DNA of 22,263 nt, from IMG/VR virus record IMGVR_UViG_3300044997_000317, positions 1-22,263 of that record; one strand, 5' to 3'. This DNA comes from a virus. Shown piece after piece: positions 3,177-22,263 of the stretch (position 1 is the first letter of the stretch; every line of letters starts with the position of its first letter). Under the pieces are notes generated by a model that was not told the origin of the DNA, did no database searches, and saw only the letters and a program-made list of their open reading frames with translations. The translations under genes and the position numbers were made by a program.

Positions 3177-6100
3177 TTATATATTCTCAAAAGACGCTCC
3201 CGTAGGTGTGATGTAGAATGTAATATCGATGAATTCAAGTGATCTTGTTGGTTTAATATAAATTTTACCAGTCAATTGATTTCTGTCGATATCTTCAGGG
3301 TCACTTGATACCGTAACTCTAAAGTCATATAAACCTCGGTCTCTTCTGATAGCATCTAAGATAGGATTCACCGCATTTAAAAAGTCTTGTCTAACTTGTG
3401 CGTCGTTTTGTTCAAACAACAACCTTACAGATACTGCTGAAATCAATTTACGTGCTTGTAATAACAATCTTCTAACGTTAATTCTATCAAGAGCGGATTC
3501 TCTAATTTGTAGAGTTTTATTACCCCAAATTACCGTACCAACATCAGAGAAAGTTGCAATCGGGTTAATTCTTCCACCATATAGAATGTCTCTATCTTCT
3601 TGAGTTAATTTTTTACGAGCTTTAATACAATTTACAATACCACGAGTGTAACCTGCTGCTGCAAACCATGGGTAAGCAATATTGTCGGTTAATGCTAAGT
3701 TTCTTGTAACCTCAGCCGTTGGTGGAATATAGATTTGAGTGTTATTAACCGTATCTCTTGTTAATACCCAAGGATAATAAGTTGCCGTATAGTTTGAGTC
3801 AATTCCTGAATCAGACAATAAATCAACGGCTTCAGTTGGGTATATTAGGTTATCATCTCCTGTTGTAGTTGGTGAGAATAAGTTGTAATCAGGACAAGTG
3901 GTTACATATAACGAATCCGCTCTATCGAATTCAATCATATTGATTGCCGACTCAACAAGATTCGAGTTATTCATAAAATCAATACCGGGAGTAACAAATA
4001 CATTAATGTTTGTGGCTTCAGGGTTTGCAAATGTTTGCTGACCTAACAAATATGCGTAATAGTCAGTGTTTGCAAAATCTTGAGTACCATCACCAACAGA
4101 TATTTGTTTGAATGCTCCCCATCCACTTGCGTTAGGGTATCTATCTGATGGACAAGCTCCCCTTAAGAAACCAGGTCTACCTAATACAAATCTATCGGTA
4201 TTTGTTCTTGATTCTCTATAGATATCCCATCCGTTAAATCCTCCTTGAACTAATAAAGTAAACTTACGTGCGAATAATCTGTAGTAGTCGTTAGCAGGGT
4301 CTTGAGGATCATTAATGAATGAATAATTACCACATACAAATCTTGGATTTCCACTTGTACTAAATCCTCCACCTATTGTAATACCTGAAGCATTTTTATC
4401 CATATGGAAACCAGCCGATCTGTAGTTCCAATCAATACCATCGATATCACAACTATTTACAGGATTTCTCTTACCAACATATTCAAAATATGAAGAATCC
4501 CATCCGTAGAAATTACCAATACCTAAGTATGTTCTTCTGATATTATCACCACTACTTACAATAACATCATCAACGCCAGTACTTGTACCGAAAGGTGGGT
4601 TCCAGATTGGTTCTCCAGGGAAGTTGTATTTTGATTTAATAATAGGAAAAGATGGTTGAGCTCCTTGATATAATCTAAAGTTAAATCCGTTGAACCCACA
4701 AGGAAGTGCGTCAATCGGTGCGTCCTCATTAATTTCAACCATAACATATCTCGAATTTAAAACGTATTCACCATTAAATGTACCTATTTTAACACCAATA
4801 AAGTTATTTTGTTCAGGATCCATACCACAATTTGTGAATTTCTCAAGTACAACAGGATTTGCATCGGTATCGAAATAATCTCTAACTAATACCGTAAATG
4901 TACCATTCGAGAAAGATAGATCAACAATTGATATTTTAACTAATGTGTTAGCACCATCACCATCAGATACGGTATAGAATTTAAATAGGTCATAAACCTT
5001 GTTACCTCTAAGTTCAGAAACTAACCATGGGGAACTCGGGGTTTGCCATCTATCTAAATACCACCCAATTGAATGAACGTCACCGCTTTGAGCAGAATCT
5101 AATTCGATTAGGTTTGGATTTAAACCTCTAATATAACCTTTTCTCCAAGAATAGTTTAACCATGATTGGAATCTTTCTTCACAGAATAAAGGAACTTCTA
5201 ATCTTGGTTTTTGGAAGTTAGTAACGCCAAATACTTTAGTAATATACTCAGGATCGTTTTGTAAGAAAGACGTTTCAAAAGTATAGTTTTGTCCGTATCT
5301 GTTTTTAGCGTTCACCGCAAATGTTGCGTATGGGTTTTTAAGAACAGATGAATACTGACCTGCCATATTTAAAGACACATCTGTTGTACCAGTAACTTCG
5401 TAAGTTGGGTTTTCATCATTAGTATATAATGAAACTCCTCTAGAACGTAATGTACCAATAACAACATTATCATATTGAGTGTAAGATGTACCTGTATAAT
5501 AATATATTTTAACGACCAAATTACCTGAATAACAATTAACAGGTACAGGTGATGGTGTTGGTGTAACATTCACTTGTGGTGAAGGTGTTATACAAGGATT
5601 TTGTGCCGAAGGTGTTGGTGTCGGAGTTGCTGACGCAATTATCGTAGGTGTTGGTGTTGGAATTGGACTGTAGTTTTGTAAGTTTTGTACTATACCAAAG
5701 AATGAAAATCCTGAATACCCAAACCCAATTGCCTCGTGGTCAAATAAGGAATAATACCAAGAATCGTTAAATCCTGATGATAAATTATTCTCAGTAAATG
5801 GAATTGATGGTACTTGGAATACATTTGTAGTTCCTGTAAACCCTGTCATTGATAAGTGATAATAATCTTCATCAGCAACAGAACCAAAGTAATAAATTTT
5901 TTCATCTTCAGCCAAGAATGGTGTAGGACTTGTTATTACATCAAATACCAAATCTTGAAGTTGAGTTAACAATGTTGAATTTCCACCTTGTGGTGTTTCA
6001 TAAGACTCATTTAATTTAACCAACAATTCTTGAGGAAACGCCGATGATGATAAGAATGACACCGATGTTGGTGAATCTGTACATGCGGAAAATGGAATTG

Positions 6101-6545
6101 AATAACTTTCCTCCCTTGGAATTAAACAAATTGGATCACAAGGATCTTCAGGTAAAGTCCCTCCACTTAAACACCACACATCAATTGTAGATGGGTCAAC
6201 GTTGGCCGTTGTTGTTATAGACCAAGACGGACCTGCGTCATATCCTGATAAACCTAATATTCTTGTTACGAATAATTGATTAGATTGTTGTAAATATGCT
6301 TTAGCGATATAAGCCGCTTCATATTTAGGAATTTGTGTATTCACAAATTTTTCTGGTGAAGTACCTCCGAAGTATTGAGTAAATTCATCAAAATTAGTGA
6401 TGAAAATAGGTTCAAATGCCGGACCGATAATAGTTTCACCAACGATCCCCAAAGTTGTAACACCAACGCTTTGAGCTACAAAACTCAAATCTACCTCTGA
6501 TGTATAAACTCCAGGTGAAACAAATACTTTACTGTTAGTTGCCAT
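3177..6545 (-). CDS. Tail sheath protein (T4 gp18-like), greatly enlarged
   Basis: A 1122-residue sheath subunit; T4 gp18 has 659. The N-terminus (VFVSPGVYTSEVDLS, then GVTTLGIVGET and IFITNFDEFTQYFGG) and the C-terminal ~240 residues (YPWFAAAGYTRG, FSDVGTVIWGNKTL, then RRLLLQARKLI and the final beta arm with GKIYIKPTRSLEFIDITFYI) are classical sheath features. These two parts form the contractile core and inter-subunit mesh. Between them, roughly residues 110-880, are extra beta-rich domains that should project outward. They are split by a Pro/Thr-rich linker (residues ~293-337, with repeated PTPTPT units) flanked by Cys-containing NPC and VNCYSG. The gene starts at ATG 6545, 36 nt after an ATATTTAT motif, and is closed by a strong terminator, so it is probably its own transcription unit. 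Function is secure; the role of the inserted domains is unknown. Confidence 0.93.
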   Translation of the reverse strand: MATNSKVFVSPGVYTSEVDLSFVAQSVGVTTLGIVGETIIGPAFEPIFITNFDEFTQYFGGTSPEKFVNTQIPKYEAAYIAKAYLQQSNQLFVTRILGLSGYDAGPSWSITTTANVDPSTIDVWCLSGGTLPEDPCDPICLIPREESYSIPFSACTDSPTSVSFLSSSAFPQELLVKLNESYETPQGGNSTLLTQLQDLVFDVITSPTPFLAEDEKIYYFGSVADEDYYHLSMTGFTGTTNVFQVPSIPFTENNLSSGFNDSWYYSLFDHEAIGFGYSGFSFFGIVQNLQNYSPIPTPTPTIIASATPTPTPSAQNPCITPSPQVNVTPTPSPVPVNCYSGNLVVKIYYYTGTSYTQYDNVVIGTLRSRGVSLYTNDENPTYEVTGTTDVSLNMAGQYSSVLKNPYATFAVNAKNRYGQNYTFETSFLQNDPEYITKVFGVTNFQKPRLEVPLFCEERFQSWLNYSWRKGYIRGLNPNLIELDSAQSGDVHSIGWYLDRWQTPSSPWLVSELRGNKVYDLFKFYTVSDGDGANTLVKISIVDLSFSNGTFTVLVRDYFDTDANPVVLEKFTNCGMDPEQNNFIGVKIGTFNGEYVLNSRYVMVEINEDAPIDALPCGFNGFNFRLYQGAQPSFPIIKSKYNFPGEPIWNPPFGTSTGVDDVIVSSGDNIRRTYLGIGNFYGWDSSYFEYVGKRNPVNSCDIDGIDWNYRSAGFHMDKNASGITIGGGFSTSGNPRFVCGNYSFINDPQDPANDYYRLFARKFTLLVQGGFNGWDIYRESRTNTDRFVLGRPGFLRGACPSDRYPNASGWGAFKQISVGDGTQDFANTDYYAYLLGQQTFANPEATNINVFVTPGIDFMNNSNLVESAINMIEFDRADSLYVTTCPDYNLFSPTTTGDDNLIYPTEAVDLLSDSGIDSNYTATYYPWVLTRDTVNNTQIYIPPTAEVTRNLALTDNIAYPWFAAAGYTRGIVNCIKARKKLTQEDRDILYGGRINPIATFSDVGTVIWGNKTLQIRESALDRINVRRLLLQARKLISAVSVRLLFEQNDAQVRQDFLNAVNPILDAIRRDRGLYDFRVTVSSDPEDIDRNQLTGKIYIKPTRSLEFIDITFYITPTGASFENI
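5540..5668 (-). repeat. Pro/Thr linker-coding repeat in the sheath gene
   Basis: Degenerate GGTGTT-type hexamers (plus strand) encode PTPTPT and TPTPTPS runs on the minus strand. The same kind of linker occurs twice in the fibre-like gene at 20022-20092 and 20389-20494. Confidence 0.75.
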
Positions 6546-6831: not shown

Positions 6832-7872
6832 TTACAAAAGATCTTCAGAAAACTCTAAAGTAGAAACCAAATTAGTGTCGTTTTTCACAATATCTATTTT
6901 TAACAAATCATTGGTGTTAATTCGAATTTCGAATAAATCCGAACCAAAATAAAAATCATTTATGTATATATCGTATGAAGATACATTTTCGGACTTTATT
7001 AGTGACATATTACAAGTGTATTCAAATTCTTTAGATAGTTCATTAACACCTAATTCATAATTAAATGTTGTTGATTGTGGAATATTAGGTATAGGTCTTT
7101 TTTGTTTTTTCTTTTTTGTTTTACCATCAACCTCGAACATCGTGAATGTTCTTGAAATTGCGGGACTGACTTCAAAATCATCCTCATCTAAAAGAAATCC
7201 CATCATTGTAAAATCATATTTTTGAATATAATATTTTCTTTTATCAACATCCATAACAGATTCATCCGTCATACCATCATTTATTATAGGAATATAATGA
7301 CCTTTTATAACTTGATATGCCTGTCTTGATGCAAATGTTTGATTTATGTTTTGATTAAATTTATTTATTTCTCGCATTCTGTTACAAACAATCGCAACTT
7401 GAAATTTAATGTCGACAGGTATTGGCTGAGGTATTTTGTATATGTCCATTACATTTCTTTGTCCATCCCATGTTGGAACTTGCATATAATAATAAGTTCT
7501 TCTATTTGGAATATTATACATTACCGATGGATTATTTCCGTATTTAACTTCAGGAATTCTAATTATAGTTATAAAAGGAGGTTCTACGTTTTTATCTATG
7601 TTTTGAAAATCCCAAGTCTCAACAAATTGACTCCAATTTTGACTTGTAATTAAAATGTCGACCACAGGTATTTTGGTACCTTCAACTATTGTCTCTAAAC
7701 TTTCTTTGACGAAATCTAAAAATCCTCTGTCCAAATCCGCATGTAGTAATGACTTAGGTAGATAAGTACCATCATTAGAAATCATATCGGCAATCTGATG
7801 TCTTCTTGCCAATAATGTTTTTGGGTAAGTCAAGGGAAGATATGATTTAACTTGTTTTTTCGGAAGCGCCAT
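6832..7872 (-). CDS. Tail sheath stabiliser / completion protein, T4 gp15-like
   Basis: A 346-residue protein with no signal peptide or membrane segment. Segments such as VDIKFQVAIVCNRMREINKF, then FASRQAYQVIKGHYIPII and YDFTMMGFLLDEDDFEV, resemble the terminator-type fold of gp15/gp3-like proteins, which cap the tail tube and sheath and form the joining surface to the neck. T4 gp15 is shorter (272 aa). A lysine-rich loop (GKTKKKKQKRP, near residue 250) is unusual. It lies 2 nt after the gp14-like gene and before the sheath gene, matching the T4 order 14-15-(16-17)-18. It is probably co-transcribed with the gp14-like gene, although an extra ATATTTAT copy lies inside that gene at 7947-7954. 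A gp3-like tail completion role is the main alternative. Confidence 0.5.
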   Translation of the reverse strand: MALPKKQVKSYLPLTYPKTLLARRHQIADMISNDGTYLPKSLLHADLDRGFLDFVKESLETIVEGTKIPVVDILITSQNWSQFVETWDFQNIDKNVEPPFITIIRIPEVKYGNNPSVMYNIPNRRTYYYMQVPTWDGQRNVMDIYKIPQPIPVDIKFQVAIVCNRMREINKFNQNINQTFASRQAYQVIKGHYIPIINDGMTDESVMDVDKRKYYIQKYDFTMMGFLLDEDDFEVSPAISRTFTMFEVDGKTKKKKQKRPIPNIPQSTTFNYELGVNELSKEFEYTCNMSLIKSENVSSYDIYINDFYFGSDLFEIRINTNDLLKIDIVKNDTNLVSTLEFSEDLL

Positions 7873-7874
7873 AA

Positions 7875-8387
7875 TTAAAGAGCTCTAAATTCGTCAGTAC
7901 CGACAGGTGATCCAGTTATGGTTCGATAGAAAGGTTTATACCCTTTATAAATATGTTTTAAATCAGAATATACACGACCATCGTCCACTACGGTATAATA
8001 TCTTACAAAATTTTCACTATCGTAATACCCAACATAATCTCCCAAATTTATGTCAATTTCTAAGTCATTTAATGTTTTAATATAAACAGACATTGTAATA
8101 TTTCCTGGTTCGCTTTGAACTATTTTAGTAGACCCAATTTTTGTGTTTGTTGGGGCAACTATTTGAACGTAAGCATTAAATTCGACAGGGGGTAAAAATT
8201 TTATCCCGTCTTTTAAGACTTCACCATAAACATCATCAATTTTAATTTTGTTTTTATCAACTCTATATAATACGCAAGTAAAATTCATATCTCCTACCAA
8301 CCACTCTTGTCCCATGCTGATCTCCAATTCAAAATCACTGTCACCAAAAAATTTACCTAACCTCGTTATAGGAACATTACTTTTCAT
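7875..8387 (-). CDS. Neck / head-completion protein, T4 gp14-like
   Basis: A 170-residue, beta-rich protein. The segment EWLVGDMNFTCVLYRVDKNK followed by IDDVYGEVLKDGIKFLPPVEFNAYVQI resembles the pattern of T4-group neck protein gp14, in which an E/Q-x-L-(x)-D-L region precedes an 'I-D-x-hydrophobic-G-E' turn. It is shorter than T4 gp14 (256 aa). Such proteins close the portal vertex and help form the collar to which the tail joins. It starts at ATG 8387, 15 nt after an ATATTTAT motif, and is the first gene of the leftward virion cluster. The gp15-like gene follows after 2 nt. Assignment leans on synteny; a different small virion protein is possible. Confidence 0.45.
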   Translation of the reverse strand: MKSNVPITRLGKFFGDSDFELEISMGQEWLVGDMNFTCVLYRVDKNKIKIDDVYGEVLKDGIKFLPPVEFNAYVQIVAPTNTKIGSTKIVQSEPGNITMSVYIKTLNDLEIDINLGDYVGYYDSENFVRYYTVVDDGRVYSDLKHIYKGYKPFYRTITGSPVGTDEFRAL

Positions 8388-8399
8388 TTGGGTGTTTTA

Positions 8400-11309
8400 T
8401 TGATAAATATACATTTTATTGTTATTTTTAGTGAAAGACTTGAATTGGATAATATATCGTCTTTAGTTGAACACAAAGCTCTTGAACTACTTGATTCTTA
8501 TAGTGGTGCAAATAACTACATACTTTTTTTAAAACAGAAAAAAGAAACATCCAAAAAGTTTTATCCTACCCGAGCCCAAGCAGATTATATTATAAATTAC
8601 TTTGAAACAACACCAAAGGTTGCAAGAAAGTGGGTTGAGTTAGACACCTACTTCGCTAAGAAATTTGCCGAAGAAAAATATTTGTTACAAACTCCTGAAA
8701 AAATTTATATAGAAAAATTACTCGTAGAAAAAGAAAAATCATATCACGTTTGGGGAAAGTTTTTTAAAAAGGACCAATTGTCTGAATTTTGGGTCCCCAA
8801 ATCAGCACTTATAAAAACACACAATGTTCAGAGTGTTGAAATTGATTATTCAAAGTATTCCCACCGACCGCCATTAAATCATCAAAAAATTGCAATTGAA
8901 AGGTTGGTAGGATCCAAAAGATTTATTTTGGCAGATGATATGGGGGTGGGGAAATGCGAGTATGTAAAAAACGAAGTATTTACCCCGATTGGTAGAAAAA
9001 AAATTGGTGATTTAAAAGTGGGTGACAAAGTAATTGGTAGTGATGGAAAATCTCATAATGTTATTGGTGTATTTCTACAGGGTGTCAAAGAAACATATAA
9101 AATCACATTTAATGACGGATTTTCAATTTTAGTGGGGGATGAACATTTATGGTCAGTATCATCACCAAATTATGGCCAAAATACAAAAAACAAAAGACGA
9201 AAAAAATCTTTAGTATTATCAACTAAACAAATGTTTGAGGGGGGTAAAATAAAAGTTAAAGGTGTTGGTCATAATAAGGATAAGGAATATGAAATTGAAA
9301 CTTACTTCAAGTCAACAAACGGAAATAATAAATGGCAAATTCCTATTGTTCAACCAATTCAATTTGAACGAAATGATAACCTTCCTATTGATCCTTATTT
9401 ATTAGGTTTAATTTTAGGGGATGGACATCTAACTAAATCATCTTGTGTATTTACAGTACATAGTGATGATTATGATGAATTATTTGGTGGTTTCAATTTA
9501 AGTGAAAATAAACAAATTGACAACAAAAGAAAGGGAAATAAATTTATTGGTAGAGACATATTATGTAATCTTAAATTAAATGAGTCTCGTTCACACAATA
9601 AATTTATACCAGAAATATACAAATATTCATCAATTGAAAATAGATTATCTATACTACAAGGGTTAATGGACACTGACGGTCATTGTATGTATAATGAACA
9701 AGAAAATTTTTCAGGAACCGAATACTCAACAATTTCAAAACAACTTTGTGATGATGTTGTTGAGATTGTTCAAACATTAGGAGGTATTGCGAGAGTTAAA
9801 ACTCGTATTCCGACATATACATATAATGGTGAAAAAAAGAAAGGTCAGTTATCATATAGGGTTAATATTAAACTACCAAAAGGAATGAACCCTTTTAGAT
9901 TAAAACGAAAAGCTGAAAAGTACATTGAACCTATAAAATACCCAACTGGTAGATTTATTAAAAATATTGAAAAAGTTGGATTTGAAGAAAGTGTTTGTAT
10001 TTCAGTAGACTCTCCCGATAAACTATATGTGACCGAACATTGTATTGTTACACATAATACAACATCTACAATTATCGCATCCTTAGAAACAGGATCAAAA
10101 AAAATATTAATTGTTTGTCCCGCATCACTTAAAATAAACTGGCAAAGAGAAATTGAAAACTATTCAGATCGTTCTGTTTTTATTTGTGAAGGAAAAAAAT
10201 TTTCAACCGAACATGATTTTGTGATTATCAACTACGACATACTAAAGAACTTTCACGATCCAAAAAGTAAGGAACCAACCTTATTAGAACAATGCAATTT
10301 TGATTTAGTTATTTTAGATGAAGCCCATATGATTTCAAATGCACAAGCCCAAAGAACAAAAATCATAAATAGTTTTGTAAAAAAAATTAATCGAGTGTGG
10401 TTATTAACGGGAACACCAATGACTTCACGACCCATGAATTATTACAATCTTTTGAGTATCATCGAAAGCCCTGTAGCACAGAATTGGATGGCCTATGCCA
10501 TTCGATACTGTCAAGGGTATCAGTTTAAGGCAGGAAATAGAAAAGTATGGAACGTAACAGGAGCGTCTAACTTAGAAGAGTTAAGAGATCGGACCTCAAA
10601 ACAAATTCTTAGAAGATTAAAAGAAGAAGTTTTGGATTTACCCGATAAAATCATTACACCTGTTTATTTGAGATTACAATCGAAAGAATATGAAAATTTA
10701 ATGGGTGAATATTATGATTGGTATGATAAAAATCCTGACGAATCTTCATCACTTACCGTACAGTTTTCAAAATTAATGAAAGTTCGAAAAGTAATTGCAA
10801 ATGAAAAAACAAAACAAACAATTGAATTTGCGGAAAATATTTTAGAACAAGAGAAAAAAGTTATTATTTTTACCAACTTTACAGACTCACTTCGAACAAT
10901 CTACCATCACTTTAAAAATCAAGCGGTTTATTTGGATGGTAGTTGTTCTAACTCAGTTCGTCAACAAGCCGTCGACTCATTTCAAAATGACGATAAAATA
11001 AAAGTTTTTGTTGGTAATTTAAAGGCGGCTGGTGTTGGTTTAACATTAACATCTGCTGAGGTTGTTATTATAAATGATTTATCATTTGTTCCTGCAGAAC
11101 ACGCACAAGCGGAAGATAGGGCATATCGTTATGGTCAAAAATCAAACGTGTTGGTTTACTATCCTTTATATGAAAATACAATAGAGGGTGTGATTTATGA
11201 TATTTTGAATAAGAAAAAAGAAATTATCAGAACCGTGATGGGTGATCAAATACCTGAAAATGTTGGTGATGTTGTCGAGGAAATATTAAACCTAATTAAC
11301 AAAAGGTGA
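8400..11309 (+). CDS. SNF2-type DEAH helicase interrupted by an intein
   Basis: About 970 residues as translated, about 600 after removal of the 368-residue intein (8955-10058). Extein motifs in order: Walker A ADDMGVGK|TT (split by the intein), motif Ia ILIVCPASLKINW, motif II LVILDEAHMIS, motif III WLLTGTPMTSRP, and motifs V-VI GVGLTLT ... AEDRAYRYGQ. This is a SNF2/SMARCAL1-like ATPase that moves on or remodels branched DNA. In a T4-like phage the likely role is replication-fork or recombination processing, comparable to UvsW. No in-frame ATG exists before the Walker motif. TTG occurs at 8388, 8400 and 8445. I chose 8400 (product starting M-INIHFIVIF) because 8388 directly abuts the divergent gene's ATG; 8445 is equally possible. 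No TATTTAT motif precedes it in sense orientation, so it may be under other control than the virion genes. It ends with TGA. Confidence 0.88.
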   Translation: MINIHFIVIFSERLELDNISSLVEHKALELLDSYSGANNYILFLKQKKETSKKFYPTRAQADYIINYFETTPKVARKWVELDTYFAKKFAEEKYLLQTPEKIYIEKLLVEKEKSYHVWGKFFKKDQLSEFWVPKSALIKTHNVQSVEIDYSKYSHRPPLNHQKIAIERLVGSKRFILADDMGVGKCEYVKNEVFTPIGRKKIGDLKVGDKVIGSDGKSHNVIGVFLQGVKETYKITFNDGFSILVGDEHLWSVSSPNYGQNTKNKRRKKSLVLSTKQMFEGGKIKVKGVGHNKDKEYEIETYFKSTNGNNKWQIPIVQPIQFERNDNLPIDPYLLGLILGDGHLTKSSCVFTVHSDDYDELFGGFNLSENKQIDNKRKGNKFIGRDILCNLKLNESRSHNKFIPEIYKYSSIENRLSILQGLMDTDGHCMYNEQENFSGTEYSTISKQLCDDVVEIVQTLGGIARVKTRIPTYTYNGEKKKGQLSYRVNIKLPKGMNPFRLKRKAEKYIEPIKYPTGRFIKNIEKVGFEESVCISVDSPDKLYVTEHCIVTHNTTSTIIASLETGSKKILIVCPASLKINWQREIENYSDRSVFICEGKKFSTEHDFVIINYDILKNFHDPKSKEPTLLEQCNFDLVILDEAHMISNAQAQRTKIINSFVKKINRVWLLTGTPMTSRPMNYYNLLSIIESPVAQNWMAYAIRYCQGYQFKAGNRKVWNVTGASNLEELRDRTSKQILRRLKEEVLDLPDKIITPVYLRLQSKEYENLMGEYYDWYDKNPDESSSLTVQFSKLMKVRKVIANEKTKQTIEFAENILEQEKKVIIFTNFTDSLRTIYHHFKNQAVYLDGSCSNSVRQQAVDSFQNDDKIKVFVGNLKAAGVGLTLTSAEVVIINDLSFVPAEHAQAEDRAYRYGQKSNVLVYYPLYENTIEGVIYDILNKKKEIIRTVMGDQIPENVGDVVEEILNLINKR
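8403..8410 (-). promoter_or_regulatory. Late-promoter-like motif ATATTTAT before the gp14-like gene
   Basis: The minus-strand sequence TGTATATTTATCAATAAAAC places the octamer 15 nt before the ATG at 8387. It overlaps the first codons of the divergent helicase frame, so either the helicase start is further in or the two units share this sequence. Confidence 0.6.
8955..10058 (+). mobile_element. Intein with LAGLIDADG homing endonuclease, inserted in helicase Walker A
   Basis: 368 codons in frame with the helicase. It begins with Cys1 (CEYVKNEVFTPIG, block A) directly after Walker A GVGK. Block B is around LVGDEHLWSV. Two LAGLIDADG-type helices are present: LLGLILGDGHL (block C) and LQGLMDTDGHC (block E). 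Block F is VCISVDSPDKLYVTEHC. It ends in IVTHN (block G, penultimate His and terminal Asn), followed by Thr as the +1 nucleophile. All residues expected for splicing and the catalytic Asp of both endonuclease helices are present, so it looks active. Splicing would restore GVGKTT, the ATP-binding loop. Insertion at such conserved sites is typical of inteins, since imprecise loss kills the host protein. AT content resembles the surrounding gene. Confidence 0.93.
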
Positions 11310-18333: not shown

Positions 18334-18433
18334 AGAAGTAAAAATTACCTAAATCAATCAACTATTTTAATTTTTAAGAGTTAATATTTACGATAGTTAA
18401 TACATCCGAACCATCATAGTAAGATAATCTTTG

Positions 18434-18811
18434 TTAAGATATTGTGTTTAAAAACAAATCACAATTGTAATTTCCGTAAACAGGTGTCGCACTTGTAAAA
18501 TCCGTATAACTTAATGAAAACTTAATATTGTTAAGTTGAAAAAAGTCCGCAATCGTATTAGAATAAAATCCATCGGCAATCACATTATTATAAAAATATT
18601 CACCAATCGTGTTATTGTGAAAATAATTTCCAATTTCATTACCTTGACTAGTACTGAACCCATAACCAAAACGGTCACCAATATTGTTGTTCTCAAAGTA
18701 GTTTCCTATTTGGATATACCCAAAAACACCTAAAATTGTGTTACCTTGAAAGTAATTACCTACTTTATTTCCATTAAAATTATATGAACCAAAATTAGTC
18801 GGGTCGTCCAT
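18434..18811 (-). pseudogene. Fibre fragment 4: end of Asn-rich repeats and C-terminal segment
   Basis: Stop-free stretch with an ATG at 18811 (125 codons). It encodes GNYFQGN-type nonapeptide repeats, then KFSLSYTDFTSATPVYGNY. It is in the same frame as 19001-19525. The frame stays open upstream of 18811 to the TAA at 19001 (repeats continue), so the ATG is likely just an internal Met. Past its TAA another 19 codons (QRLSYYDGSDVLTIVNINS) follow to 18374. Confidence 0.6.
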
Positions 18812-19310
18812 TGTGTTTCCGTCAAATATTTCACCAATAACATTTTCATAAAAGCTTAAGTATATTCTATTATTATTATAACCACCACCAATTATATTCC
18901 CATAAAAATTAAAATAAGTTTTATTATTATTGAATCCATTTGCAACTTCGTTTTTATAGAACTGACCGTTTATAATATTGTTATTGTATGCATTTCTAAT
19001 TTAGTTATTTTGAAAATCTCCATTAGTTATTACATTATTTTCAAATTGGTTACCTATATCATTTCTATAAAATAATCCATTAATAATTGTATTATTATTA
19101 AAATCATCCCCAACTCTGTTTCTTTGGAAATTAGCGGTAATGTAATTATTGTGAAAATTGTTACCAATTAAATTATCATCAAAATCGTCATCTGTGGTAT
19201 TATTATAAAATAAATTACCAATTATGTTATTTGAACAATCGTCATCAAATGTATTATTAAAACAAGAGTTTCCAAATGTATTATTTACATAGGACAGATT
19301 TCCATAAAAT
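18520..19310 (-). repeat. Asn-rich nonapeptide repeats (beta-solenoid) in the fibre gene
   Basis: The coding unit is 27-30 nt, peptide consensus N-x-(I/V)-(G/A)-x-x-F-x-x, for example NTIGEYFYN, NVIADGFYS, NLIGNNFHN, NYITANFQR. Roughly 25 degenerate copies run across the TAA at 19001 without loss of phase. Confidence 0.75.
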
Positions 19311-19525
19311 ACATTGTTGGACAAAATAAAAGAATTATTATTTAAGTTATCTGTGTTGGCGTAATTACCAATAAAATTATTTATCACAATATCTGATGGT
19401 TCGCCAAAAGTTAAATACTCGACAAAACTTTCCGTATCTCCTGTAAAATTAGTTTGTTTGTAATTCAAAGATTTATAACCTAAATCATTTGCCGGTAAAT
19501 TTGAGGTAATTCCCGTAAAATTCAA
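19001..19525 (-). pseudogene. Fibre fragment 3: middle domain end and start of Asn-rich repeats
   Basis: Stop-free stretch (174 codons from a TTG at 19525), but the same frame is open further up to the TAA at 19784, adding LLFAIAGGVKTTNVQIQNVV and flanking residues. There is no ATG or promoter-like motif before it. It ends at TAA 19001-19003 in the middle of a repeat unit (DFQNN-stop-IRNAYNNNI). Confidence 0.6.
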
Positions 19526-20001
19526 ATTTAAATTAGATAATGTTACATTTATGTCTGATGGGTCGATAAAAGATAAATAACTATTTACAACATTTTGAAT
19601 TTGAACATTTGTAGTTTTAACTCCACCAGCAATTGCGAATAATAAATAATGTATTTGAGTGACTCCTATTAAGTTAGAAATAGTATCTATATCGTCTTCG
19701 GTTGAAAAATCGATATTGTGTGTAATACTTTCGTCAATTGTGTTTACGATATAGATATGGTTTACGGATGGATCTTGAGCATCTTAAACTGATTTAGTGT
19801 AAACAGAATAATCAATCCCACCAAAAGTTAAAGTATAATCATGAATATCCGCCTGACCATCTCTATCAGAACCTAAATTACCATCTATTTCAAAATCTGT
19901 AATTGCAATATCATAAGCACTCATCACAAACAAACCAGACTAACAATTTGTAAAATAAGTAGATTCTAAATTAAAATACGAGTCCCCATTTTCTGTTATT
20001 A

Positions 20002-20298
20002 TTAGATCAACCAAAATCTCAATTGGGTTGTTGGAATTGGCGTGGGGGTAGGAGTTGGTGTTGGTGTATTAGTAGGTGTTGGTGTTAGGGTTAAAGGATA
20101 GGTTTTAGTTATTTGCCAAGTTGAGTCACTTGGGAAAACAATAACATTACCGAATGCATCTTCTCGATTTAAGTTATCAAAATTTTCGTCCAAAGTTACG
20201 ATCGTAGTTCCAATGATGTCTCCTGTATTTATAGTAACTCCCGTAAAAATAGAAATACTATTTCCAGTGTACGTCCCTAAAATGTGATTGAAAAACAT
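20002..20298 (-). pseudogene. Fibre fragment 2: beta domain plus second Pro/Thr linker
   Basis: 98 codons from an internal ATG at 20298, in the same frame as the N-terminal fragment. It carries a beta-rich domain (GVTINTGDIIGTTIVTLDEN) and a TPTPTPTPIPTT linker. After the linker the sensible protein continues in the neighbouring frame (PIEILVDLIITENGDSYFNL); adding one C to the ACCC run would join them. Confidence 0.6.
20022..20092 (-). repeat. Pro/Thr linker-coding repeat, second copy in fibre gene
   Basis: Degenerate CCAACA-type hexamers on the minus strand encode a TPTPTPTPTP-like linker. The frame change of the fibre gene lies at its 3' end, in a run of C. Confidence 0.7.
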
Positions 20299-20382
20299 TG
20301 CAGTTTCTTACTCAACATTTTTATTAGATTCTAACACATATGTTATTTTAACCGATTCTGAGTCTATAATTGCATTTAATTC

Positions 20383-20928
20383 TTATATCAATGGTGATGG
20401 AGTCGGACTCGGTATCGGTGTTTCTGTTGGTATCGGAGTTGATGTTGGTATCGGTGTTTCTGTTGGTATCGGAGTTGATGTTGGGGTTGGGCTAATAAGA
20501 ATCGGTCCAGGATCAACACAACACGGAAAATCAACTACATAACAACTCTCATATTCCAAATCATCGGCAATAAAACTTTCTTGAACATTGATGAATAGTT
20601 CATCCCTTATTGGTAATATTAAAGTACCTTGATCATTTCTAAAAAGAAATTGTCCTACATATCTTCCTGGTTTGTTTGTATCCTTAGGTGTGAATTGATA
20701 ATAAACATAATATTCAGGATCAGCATTGGGTTCTATTAATATTTTTTCTACAAACCCTGCGGGTCTTGTTGATATTTTTGGAATTCCAGTTTCAGTATTG
20801 ACCATTGAGAAAAATATTGCACTTTCCTCAATAAAATCCATCATTTTGTTATAATCACTACGACCATCCTTTACTACTTGCATTTTTAATAAAGGGAGAG
20901 TTGCATTTTTTTTAATAAAGAATTCCAT
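20383..20928 (-). CDS. Fibre N-terminal segment (181 codons to first stop)
   Basis: Starts at ATG 20928, 14 nt after an ATATTTAT motif; the TTG one codon earlier is not needed. Residues 1-140 form a beta-rich domain (FIKKNATLPLLKMQVVKDG, then IFFSMVNTETG, VYYQFTPKDTNKPGRYVGQF) that resembles N-terminal attachment domains of baseplate or fibre proteins (BppU-like). A CCVDPGP turn leads to a Pro/Thr linker with two copies of TSTPIPTETPIP. The TAA at 20383-20385 then stops the frame, which continues on the other side (ELNAIIDSESVKITYVL). If the stop is obeyed, this segment alone could still be made as a truncated protein ending in its linker. Confidence 0.65.
   Translation of the reverse strand: MEFFIKKNATLPLLKMQVVKDGRSDYNKMMDFIEESAIFFSMVNTETGIPKISTRPAGFVEKILIEPNADPEYYVYYQFTPKDTNKPGRYVGQFLFRNDQGTLILPIRDELFINVQESFIADDLEYESCYVVDFPCCVDPGPILISPTPTSTPIPTETPIPTSTPIPTETPIPSPTPSPLI
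20389..20494 (-). repeat. Pro/Thr linker with a perfect 36-bp tandem duplication
   Basis: Two identical 36-bp units abut at 20411-20446 and 20447-20482, each coding for TSTPIPTETPIP on the minus strand. Related hexamers flank them. Unit length is a multiple of three, so copy-number change would lengthen the linker without shifting frame. Confidence 0.85.
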
Positions 20929-20955: not shown

Positions 20956-22263
20956 TTAACATTCTTTTCTCTCTTCGGACTTATAAAAATCAAATCTATT
21001 GTGTTCTGTTGGTGTCATTAGTAACACTGATGAATTGATTCTACCTTTGATAGTTTGTTGATAACAATAAGACATTAGAGTTTGCTCATACGGATGAGTA
21101 AACTTTGTTTCTAAATAACACTTGAAATTACCTTCTTTTGACATTATAATTGGCCAATTAGAAAGATAGATTTCGCCATTTGCGTATGGAACCCCATTTA
21201 ATGATTTTATATTTATAAATTCTAAATTTGGACTATTTGAGTCTTGTCCATGTGTTGGTAAATGTGAGTTGTTAGGCCAACGTTTTTCTCTGATACTTTG
21301 TGGTACATTGTACCAAGACCATTGTTTTTCATGACTACCAAAAAATTCTGTATAATTAAATTTTAAAAAATCAAAGTTTTCTTTTTTCATGATTTCTAAA
21401 ATTTTGTTATATAAATTTGGTACATATCGGTTAAAACCATTTTTACATGTACCTTCTTTTCTGTTGTAGAATAACATATCATCTTCAAAAAACATGTAAT
21501 ACTCTAAATCTGTTTTATCAAAATGGTCCGCAATAAAAACACGACCACCAGTGATTCCAAGATTATCTTTTTTAATGTGAGTAAAACCATATTGATCACA
21601 AAATTTTTGATATTCCTCTGTGGTGGATAAATCAGTTGAATTGTTTAATAAAAATTTTTCAGTTTTTTCTAAAAAATTAGAGTCGTAATCATACATCGTA
21701 TTGACTAATGTCTCGAATTGCTTTGGGCTATTAAATGTTATAACATATAACCCAACTTTTCCTTTTGAAGATTTTTTTATAGTTCTTTTTTTTGTGGTAT
21801 TTTTAATCTCGACATTATTGTTTTTTAAATTTACGAAAAATGTATATAAAAGACCATCAGAATTAATTTCAAAATAATCAATCATGTATGGATGATTATA
21901 TAATAAAATAGTAAATAAACTTTCTTCAGTACCCATTAATCCTTTAGATAGTGTATCACCCATCAAGTTATAGTAACTCGTATTTAAAGGTTCTATCATG
22001 TGTTTAGGGCCACCAAAAAATCCACCTCTTGCAACTTTATCTACTTTGGCGTTTGCATATTCGTTCATTTTTGAATATTCGAATCCATGTATTTCATTAT
22101 TTGCATGATACGGAAAACATATGAAAGTAAAATTTTCGAATTGGTCTACTTTTTCTAATATATTATCGTGAGTAAAATAACCCATATTTACGGTATTTGC
22201 CAAACCAGCGTCAATCCAATATAATTTTTCAGAAACAAATTTATCTAAAATTCTTGCATCGTT
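20956..22263 (-). CDS. Two-domain glycosyltransferase: HtrL/YibB-like plus GT-A domain (partial, 5' end outside window)
   Basis: The frame is open from the window end to TAA 20956 (435 codons); a TTG at 22203 is not the start, because sensible coding (KLYWIDAGLANTVN) continues upstream. The first ~150 residues resemble the HtrL/YibB family: YWIDAGL, then ARGGFFGGPKHMIEPL and MGTEESLFTILLYNHP. After a lysine-rich linker (KKRTIKKSSKGK) the second domain has the GT-A pattern: VGLYVITFNSPKQFETL, then LGITGGRVFIADHF and YYMFFEDDM, whose EDD is the likely metal/nucleotide-sugar site (near residue 260 of the visible part). It also has NGEIYLSNWPIIM near the end. Such enzymes add sugars to lipid, protein or DNA acceptors. 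In a phage it may decorate virion proteins or host surface glycans. It sits directly upstream of the fibre gene; the substrate is unknown. Confidence 0.75.
   Translation of the reverse strand, partial: NDARILDKFVSEKLYWIDAGLANTVNMGYFTHDNILEKVDQFENFTFICFPYHANNEIHGFEYSKMNEYANAKVDKVARGGFFGGPKHMIEPLNTSYYNLMGDTLSKGLMGTEESLFTILLYNHPYMIDYFEINSDGLLYTFFVNLKNNNVEIKNTTKKRTIKKSSKGKVGLYVITFNSPKQFETLVNTMYDYDSNFLEKTEKFLLNNSTDLSTTEEYQKFCDQYGFTHIKKDNLGITGGRVFIADHFDKTDLEYYMFFEDDMLFYNRKEGTCKNGFNRYVPNLYNKILEIMKKENFDFLKFNYTEFFGSHEKQWSWYNVPQSIREKRWPNNSHLPTHGQDSNSPNLEFINIKSLNGVPYANGEIYLSNWPIIMSKEGNFKCYLETKFTHPYEQTLMSYCYQQTIKGRINSSVLLMTPTEHNRFDFYKSEERKEC

Follow-up and report, generated by a model that had tools for sequence, protein, structure and literature searches.

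The window examined here, a 22,263-nucleotide stretch of viral DNA, raises the question of why a reading frame on its minus strand stays coherent through six stop codons, next to neighboring genes that are open. The frame opens with an ATG at 20928 and contains TAA at 20385-20383 (stop 1) and TAA at 20310-20308 (stop 2). Within a repeat of Pro and Thr codons (about 20085-20026, minus strand) the coherent frame changes, and in the post-shift frame, on the same strand, TAG at 19942-19940 and TAA at 19786-19784, 19003-19001 and 18436-18434 precede a terminator TAA at 18376-18374. The first-pass annotation read the region (18374-20928) as one fiber of ~850 codons whose stops mark glutamines. The coherent-frame signal exceeds chance: the upstream part (gene A, see below) has 2 stops in the coding frame vs 25, 28, 19, 10 and 27 in the other five, and the downstream part (gene B, 539 codons) has 4 vs 39, 85, 30, 49 and 41. 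The interruptions reported in that annotation (five TAA and one TAG in frame, and the frame change) proved to be real and are identical in a second phage contig. This record (IMGVR_UViG_3300044956_000373, a 69.9 kb contig) spans the window over its full 22263 bases and differs from it at 6 positions (128, 507, 508, 520, 521 and 1132), none of which is within the broken region.

Related loci (denoted by L numbers) carry two genes, A and B, at the place where a single fiber had been annotated. The first 147 residues of gene A (A1) had 239 relatives in viral contigs, the window's own contig counted, and the best 80 of these were analyzed; the polymerase comparison used below was based on the best 80 of at least 598. 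In many relatives, the long ORF that follows gene A is a second gene, with a protein start resembling MALTGKTIG. A scan with the B1 region of gene B returned seven loci, namely the window's own contig and six others in which gene B is separate and unbroken (1122 aa in L083, 818 aa in L084-L086, and 971 aa in L087 and L088). The region divides into the following parts:

20383-20928, minus strand: 5' ORF of gene A, 181 aa from the ATG, ending at stop 1; A1 anchor domain (20928-20488) and Pro/Thr linker
20086-20382, minus strand: remnant of the second domain of gene A (A2), holding stop 2; matched by relatives in 31 tblastn rows at 30-55% identity
20026-20085, minus strand: second Pro/Thr linker, site of the frame change
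19994-20027, minus strand: remnant of the gene A C-terminal tail up to the deletion junction, limits approximate; ILVDLIITEN vs VLINPIITEN in L031 and L013
18377-19993, minus strand: fiber remnant of gene B, 539 codons, with the B1 region, beta-solenoid repeats, C-terminal tag and stops 3-6; aligned to the unbroken gene B of L083, L084 and L087
18374-18376, minus strand: original TAA terminator of gene B; position matches the terminators of L083, L084 and L087

At the junction, the gene A tail ILVDLIITENG runs in one frame into the middle of gene B (GDSYFNLESTYFTN; the L083 counterpart is GDTYFNLGSTYFTN). Compared with the relatives, the region lacks the end of the gene A tail, the intergenic gap and a part of gene B that comprises about 320 residues as judged by L084 and L087 (more by L083). 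Because the gene A and gene B sequences are similar to each other around the junction, we infer that the deletion probably paired short similar stretches. The TAG at 19942 was considered as the natural end of gene A and dropped, since gene B homologs read across this position. Measured against L083, L084 and L087, the locus carries six stops, a frame change and the loss of the N-terminal part of gene B, disabling changes of the kind expected in a pseudogene. In the predicted model of the unbroken gene B of L084, blocks within residues 571 to 760 had mean pLDDT values of 69-94 and short regular strands (the whole-model mean was only 45.3); on this model, gene B has the regular repeats of a beta-solenoid tail fiber. 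A scan with A2 returned only the window's own contig. Genes A and B appear to belong to an uncultured group, since A1 and B1 had no protein matches in a phages collection at the limits used; there were no DNA matches in it either. No PHROG was assigned to four fragments of the broken genes or to two unbroken proteins of gene B, and the gene A of L008 matched unnamed PHROGs only weakly; Pfam gave no match for the gene A ORF, the L008 gene A or the same two gene B proteins. A query of 86 residues from L008 gave no hit that would point to another start of gene B within the contig, and our literature search found no title on the locus.

A local sequence or assembly error, one of the options in the first-pass annotation, is unlikely because the second record agrees over the region at the contig level. 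Both records are metagenome contigs, which leaves some room for an error or for a strain mixture collapsed into one contig. However, the neighboring genes are open in addition to the agreement of the two records, and base errors would not produce the missing N-terminal part of gene B. We regard error or mixture as quite improbable.

The residues found in relatives at the stop sites bear on the glutamine claim. At 20385, where linker ends were compared by eye, relatives have V (L008, L009, L031, L015 and L064), L (L063) or I (L026). At 20310, the 31 tblastn rows, also read by eye, gave Q in 6 (L008-L010, L026, L030 and L032), E in 6, N in 7, I in 4, F in 4, D in 3 and G in 1, with Q in 3 of the 4 best rows. 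In L083, L084 and L087, respectively, the residues are Y, F and Y at 19942, W in each at 19786, K, Q and K at 19003, and L, Q and L at 18436, where L007 has S. Thus, Gln occurs in some relatives at three of the six stop sites and, at the other three (V/L/I, Y/F and W), in no relative read, which argues against stops that mark glutamines. The observation that all stops are one C-to-T step from glutamine is empty by construction, as every TAA and every TAG can be reached from CAA and CAG, respectively, by a single C-to-T change. The residue that a TAA or TAG replaced can be told from homologs alone, and the C-to-T distance to Gln is uninformative. Hypermutation from C to T also lost its basis with the three sites that lack Gln in the relatives read and with a composition like that of unbroken relatives (third-position C was 0.137 in the window, and 0.146, 0.117 and 0.140 in L083, L084 and L087, respectively). 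The change from W to TAA at 19786 needs two substitutions; at this site alone, deamination of the other strand could have acted, as the change could equal two G-to-A steps.

The extent of decay in the gene B part was assessed by counting, for each sequence, unique changes at positions invariant in the other three. These amounted to 19 of 217 in the window (including the stop at the W site), 13 of 211 in L083, 26 of 248 in L084 and 78 of 277 in L087. The mean BLOSUM62 score of the unique amino-acid changes was -0.22 for the window (18 changes), 0.92 for L083, 0.23 for L084 and -0.32 for L087, and changes scoring -1 or below made up 11 of 18, 3 of 13 and 8 of 26 in the window, L083 and L084, respectively. 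Judged from this alignment, the unique changes of the window exceed those of L083 and L084 in harshness, but the distant L087 has changes that are just as harsh. The stop at the W site is adjoined by two more changes at invariant positions, C to T and R to S.

We also fitted a codon model in which the final segment of the branch leading to the window evolves neutrally, stops being left out. The best segment length was 0.009 to 0.02 substitutions per codon, which was no better than zero, so that amino-acid changes by themselves do not demonstrate relaxed constraint on this branch, and the upper limit was about 0.065 to 0.07; a neutral segment of 0.05 cost 0.4 log units for the window vs 4.9 when L083 was substituted. 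At a length of 0.02, 0.6 stops would be expected in gene B, and the probability of four or more is 0.004. About 2 would be expected at the upper limit of ~0.065 with overall base frequencies (probability of four or more 0.11-0.22), and about 0.9 at ~0.07 with third-position base frequencies. A model in which the entire branch since L083 evolves neutrally was rejected (lnL -5468.45 vs -5451.45 with one omega). A fit to B1 only gave an omega of 0.142 on the window's branch vs 0.026 elsewhere, with a gain of 1.4 log units that was not significant; a separate fit to the repeats and C-terminus hit bounds in 3 of 4 runs and was excluded, and the L087 branch was at its bound in most codon-model fits. 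These tests of relaxed constraint are weak because synonymous sites are saturated, and the stop count is biased, as the window was picked for its stops. The fit of the last segment, the low probability of four stops at its best length, the rejection of a neutral whole branch and the equal harshness of L087 all speak against simple decay. The gene B part reads as young decay with one loose end, namely that stops are more numerous than the amino-acid changes suggest.

That amino-acid decay is slight for so many stops would also fit read-through, in which suppressor tRNAs of the phage or host, or natural read-through, would yield a full-length A-B fusion protein. Read-through has been proposed for in-frame stops of bacteria that go with a low dN/dS (PMC7918605). 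In the published account of phAss-1, TAG occurs in 41 ORFs, three suppressor tRNA genes are present and the TAG codons of the gene discussed lie at Gln positions conserved in relatives; the same account mentions recoded phages without suppressor tRNA genes (PMC10607447). Our locus resembles phAss-1, as described there, in having an in-frame TAG in a virion gene. However, its stops are mostly TAA, occur in few genes and often lie at non-Gln places, and no suppressor was found. No tRNA genes were detected in the window or in the 69.9 kb contig, which is itself a fragment, and tRNAs were present in 5 of the 10 records searched, the window's contig among the ten. In stretches of three of these five related records, ARAGORN detected no suppressor anticodons among 52 tRNAs (one of them undetermined).

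Broken frames occur at two or more places in the contig. The second broken virion gene, outside the window (positions 7453-8664 of L091), has one frame with TGA at 7531, TGA at 7807 and TAG at 7927. Similar genes occur in 118 phage records, of which most belong to cyanophages and all fall below 60% identity; among the 12 matches listed, the names given are virion structural protein, phage structural protein or hypothetical protein. A scan with this second broken gene returned only the window's own contig. Read-through would therefore need all three stop codons, TAA and TAG in the region and TGA and TAG in the second gene, to be decoded. The gene studied here is, moreover, also broken by the frame change, and relatives lack Gln at half of its stop sites. 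Genome-wide reassignment had been judged unlikely at the outset, and the terminators of the 13 intact genes in the window (12 TAA and one TGA) bear this out. Decoding limited to this one protein, the other version offered in the first-pass annotation, found no support, given a second gene broken by TGA and TAG and the lack of a detected suppressor tRNA. Recoding of either kind was rejected on the basis of aligned residues, terminator usage and the suppressor search. Read-through is kept as a very improbable explanation because of the low-dN/dS precedent and the recoded phages without suppressors.

A hypervariable slot separates gene A from the DNA polymerase gene. Among 39 distinct classed slots (identical first 1500 bases counted once), 23 had an ORF of at least 300 aa, 10 were empty (86-188 bp) and 6 were neither; this count leaves out 15 entries, comprising 12 distinct loci that have no downstream polymerase gene in the stretch and 3 in which gene A runs off. 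The six that were neither are the window's contig, L007, L046, L029, L045 and L073, and the ORFs of up to 250 aa in the last three may be ordinary small genes. Slot contents differ even between relatives whose polymerases are 91-95% identical. The gene B C-terminal tag gave 37 rows, of which 4 come from the window's contig, 27 belong to ORFs 639-1266 aa long, 5 belong to remnants (L007; L032 and L136; L149 and L152) and 1 is cut by the locus end. The remnants retain the first codons and the C-terminal end of gene B, and their internal deletions differ (L007 7201-7700; L032 6841-7170; L149 750-940). The gene B remnant of L032, 93 codons long, has kept an open frame, and a further long ORF comes after it. 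Between L013 and L015 (6001-7500), whose gene A is otherwise similar, a deletion from the Pro/Thr linker moves the gene A end from 470 to 324 aa. The occupied, empty and remnant forms of the slot constitute a natural series for the loss and replacement of receptor-binding genes. Pseudogenized tail-fiber and receptor-binding genes occur at mosaic phage fiber loci, and the window resembles these in that a fiber gene has acquired a deletion, a frame change and stops while housekeeping and structural genes next to it are intact, and in the swapping of slot contents among relatives; it differs in that its remnant is an A-B fusion and that its genes belong to an uncultured group.

We consider it highly probable that the region represents young pseudogenization of an anchor and fiber gene pair after a deletion at the hypervariable slot. 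This reading is supported by the six records with unbroken gene B, the in-frame A-B joint, the stop at an invariant W and the harsher changes, and further by remnant or empty related slots, the other broken virion gene and the TAA that ends nearly all intact genes. The first-pass option of recent decay in one receptor-binding gene was correct as to decay, but missed that two genes had been fused by a deletion, and the hypermutation attached to it is unsupported. Gene A encodes a conserved anchor domain that continues into Pro/Thr linkers and exchangeable domains, and gene B is a separate long fiber that has a beta-solenoid and ends in a conserved tag. Comparison with relatives shows that a deletion in this lineage removed the last residues of gene A, the intergenic gap and at least 320 N-terminal residues of gene B, leaving the gene A tail and gene B in frame. 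The linker frame change and the six stops presumably arose with or after this deletion. The 181-aa gene A ORF has probably stayed in use, and the remainder has become a pseudogene. Attachment of the phage probably proceeds via other open fiber genes of the same contig; open fiber-like ORFs near the second broken gene are 540 aa and 884 aa long, the latter starting near the contig end and perhaps cut. The locus is ordinary in kind, a case of gene decay where related viruses repeatedly gain and lose such genes. It provides an example of how a fiber locus dies, through a deletion between adjacent adhesion genes, stops and a frame change, with the anchor ORF still open.

A more far-reaching idea, which we consider highly improbable, is that several adhesion genes stay interrupted by stop codons of all three types and yet constrained, forming a store of receptor-binding variants that is used through low read-through expression or revived by recombination. 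Least probable is a living slot that keeps dead fiber pieces as recombination donors for incoming fiber genes: its hypervariability, with occupied, empty and remnant forms, and the retention of both gene B ends in remnants would suit such a role, but simple internal deletions also leave both ends and a donor-recipient pair was not among the loci compared.

Young pseudogenization of the pair, as preferred here, would have spared the anchor. In 48 distinct A1 sequences, there were no stops in the first 139 codons, and the A1 of the window departs only once from positions at least 95% conserved. Eight distinct relatives (L011, L027, L047, L049, L050, L051, L054 and L075) have a gene A of only 147 to 163 aa, and the 181-aa ORF is probably still functional because such equally short versions exist. 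The predicted A1 model is a beta-sandwich (mean pLDDT 74.1). Among the 995 solved chains compared, its best match, with Z 8.1 and an rmsd of 3.5 across 101 residues, was a chain of 4v96, a phage injection device of 1.8 MDa. Next came an immunoglobulin fold that is unrelated (Z 7.3), and two other phage baseplates scored Z 7.1 and 6.7. We take the matched chain of 4v96 to be BppU. BppU is described as having an N-terminal globular domain of residues 1-122 (PMC3893620). The modeled beta-sandwich and the best match may be points in common with BppU-type baseplate anchor proteins of TP901-1-like phages. However, the match is barely above the immunoglobulin-fold background (Z 8.1 vs 7.3), the phage of the window has a tail sheath and the ORF has no Pfam assignment. 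An A1 profile searched against the sequences of solved structures gave only two weak, unrelated matches, and an A1 scan of genome contigs gave 39 pattern matches and no relatives. In L097, L099, L104, L107 and L130, A1 is present as two tandem copies, each in an ORF of its own, upstream of the polymerase gene.

Judging by the tail-sheath gene in the window (3177-6545, minus strand; 1122 aa, with the sheath match at the C-terminal end), the phage is tailed and has a contractile tail. The sheath protein has an inner Pro/Thr-repeat stretch that resembles the fiber linkers. Upstream of gene A, two genes (L091 8720-11640, partly window 20956-22263, minus strand) match PF11397 Glycosyltransferase (GlcNAc) (E 2e-69) and PF09612 HtrL_YibB (E 1.6e-14); a tie between these genes and the Pro/Thr linkers would be a guess. 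The window also contains a helicase-like ORF of 973 aa (8388-11309, plus strand), which, by motif, may contain an intein.
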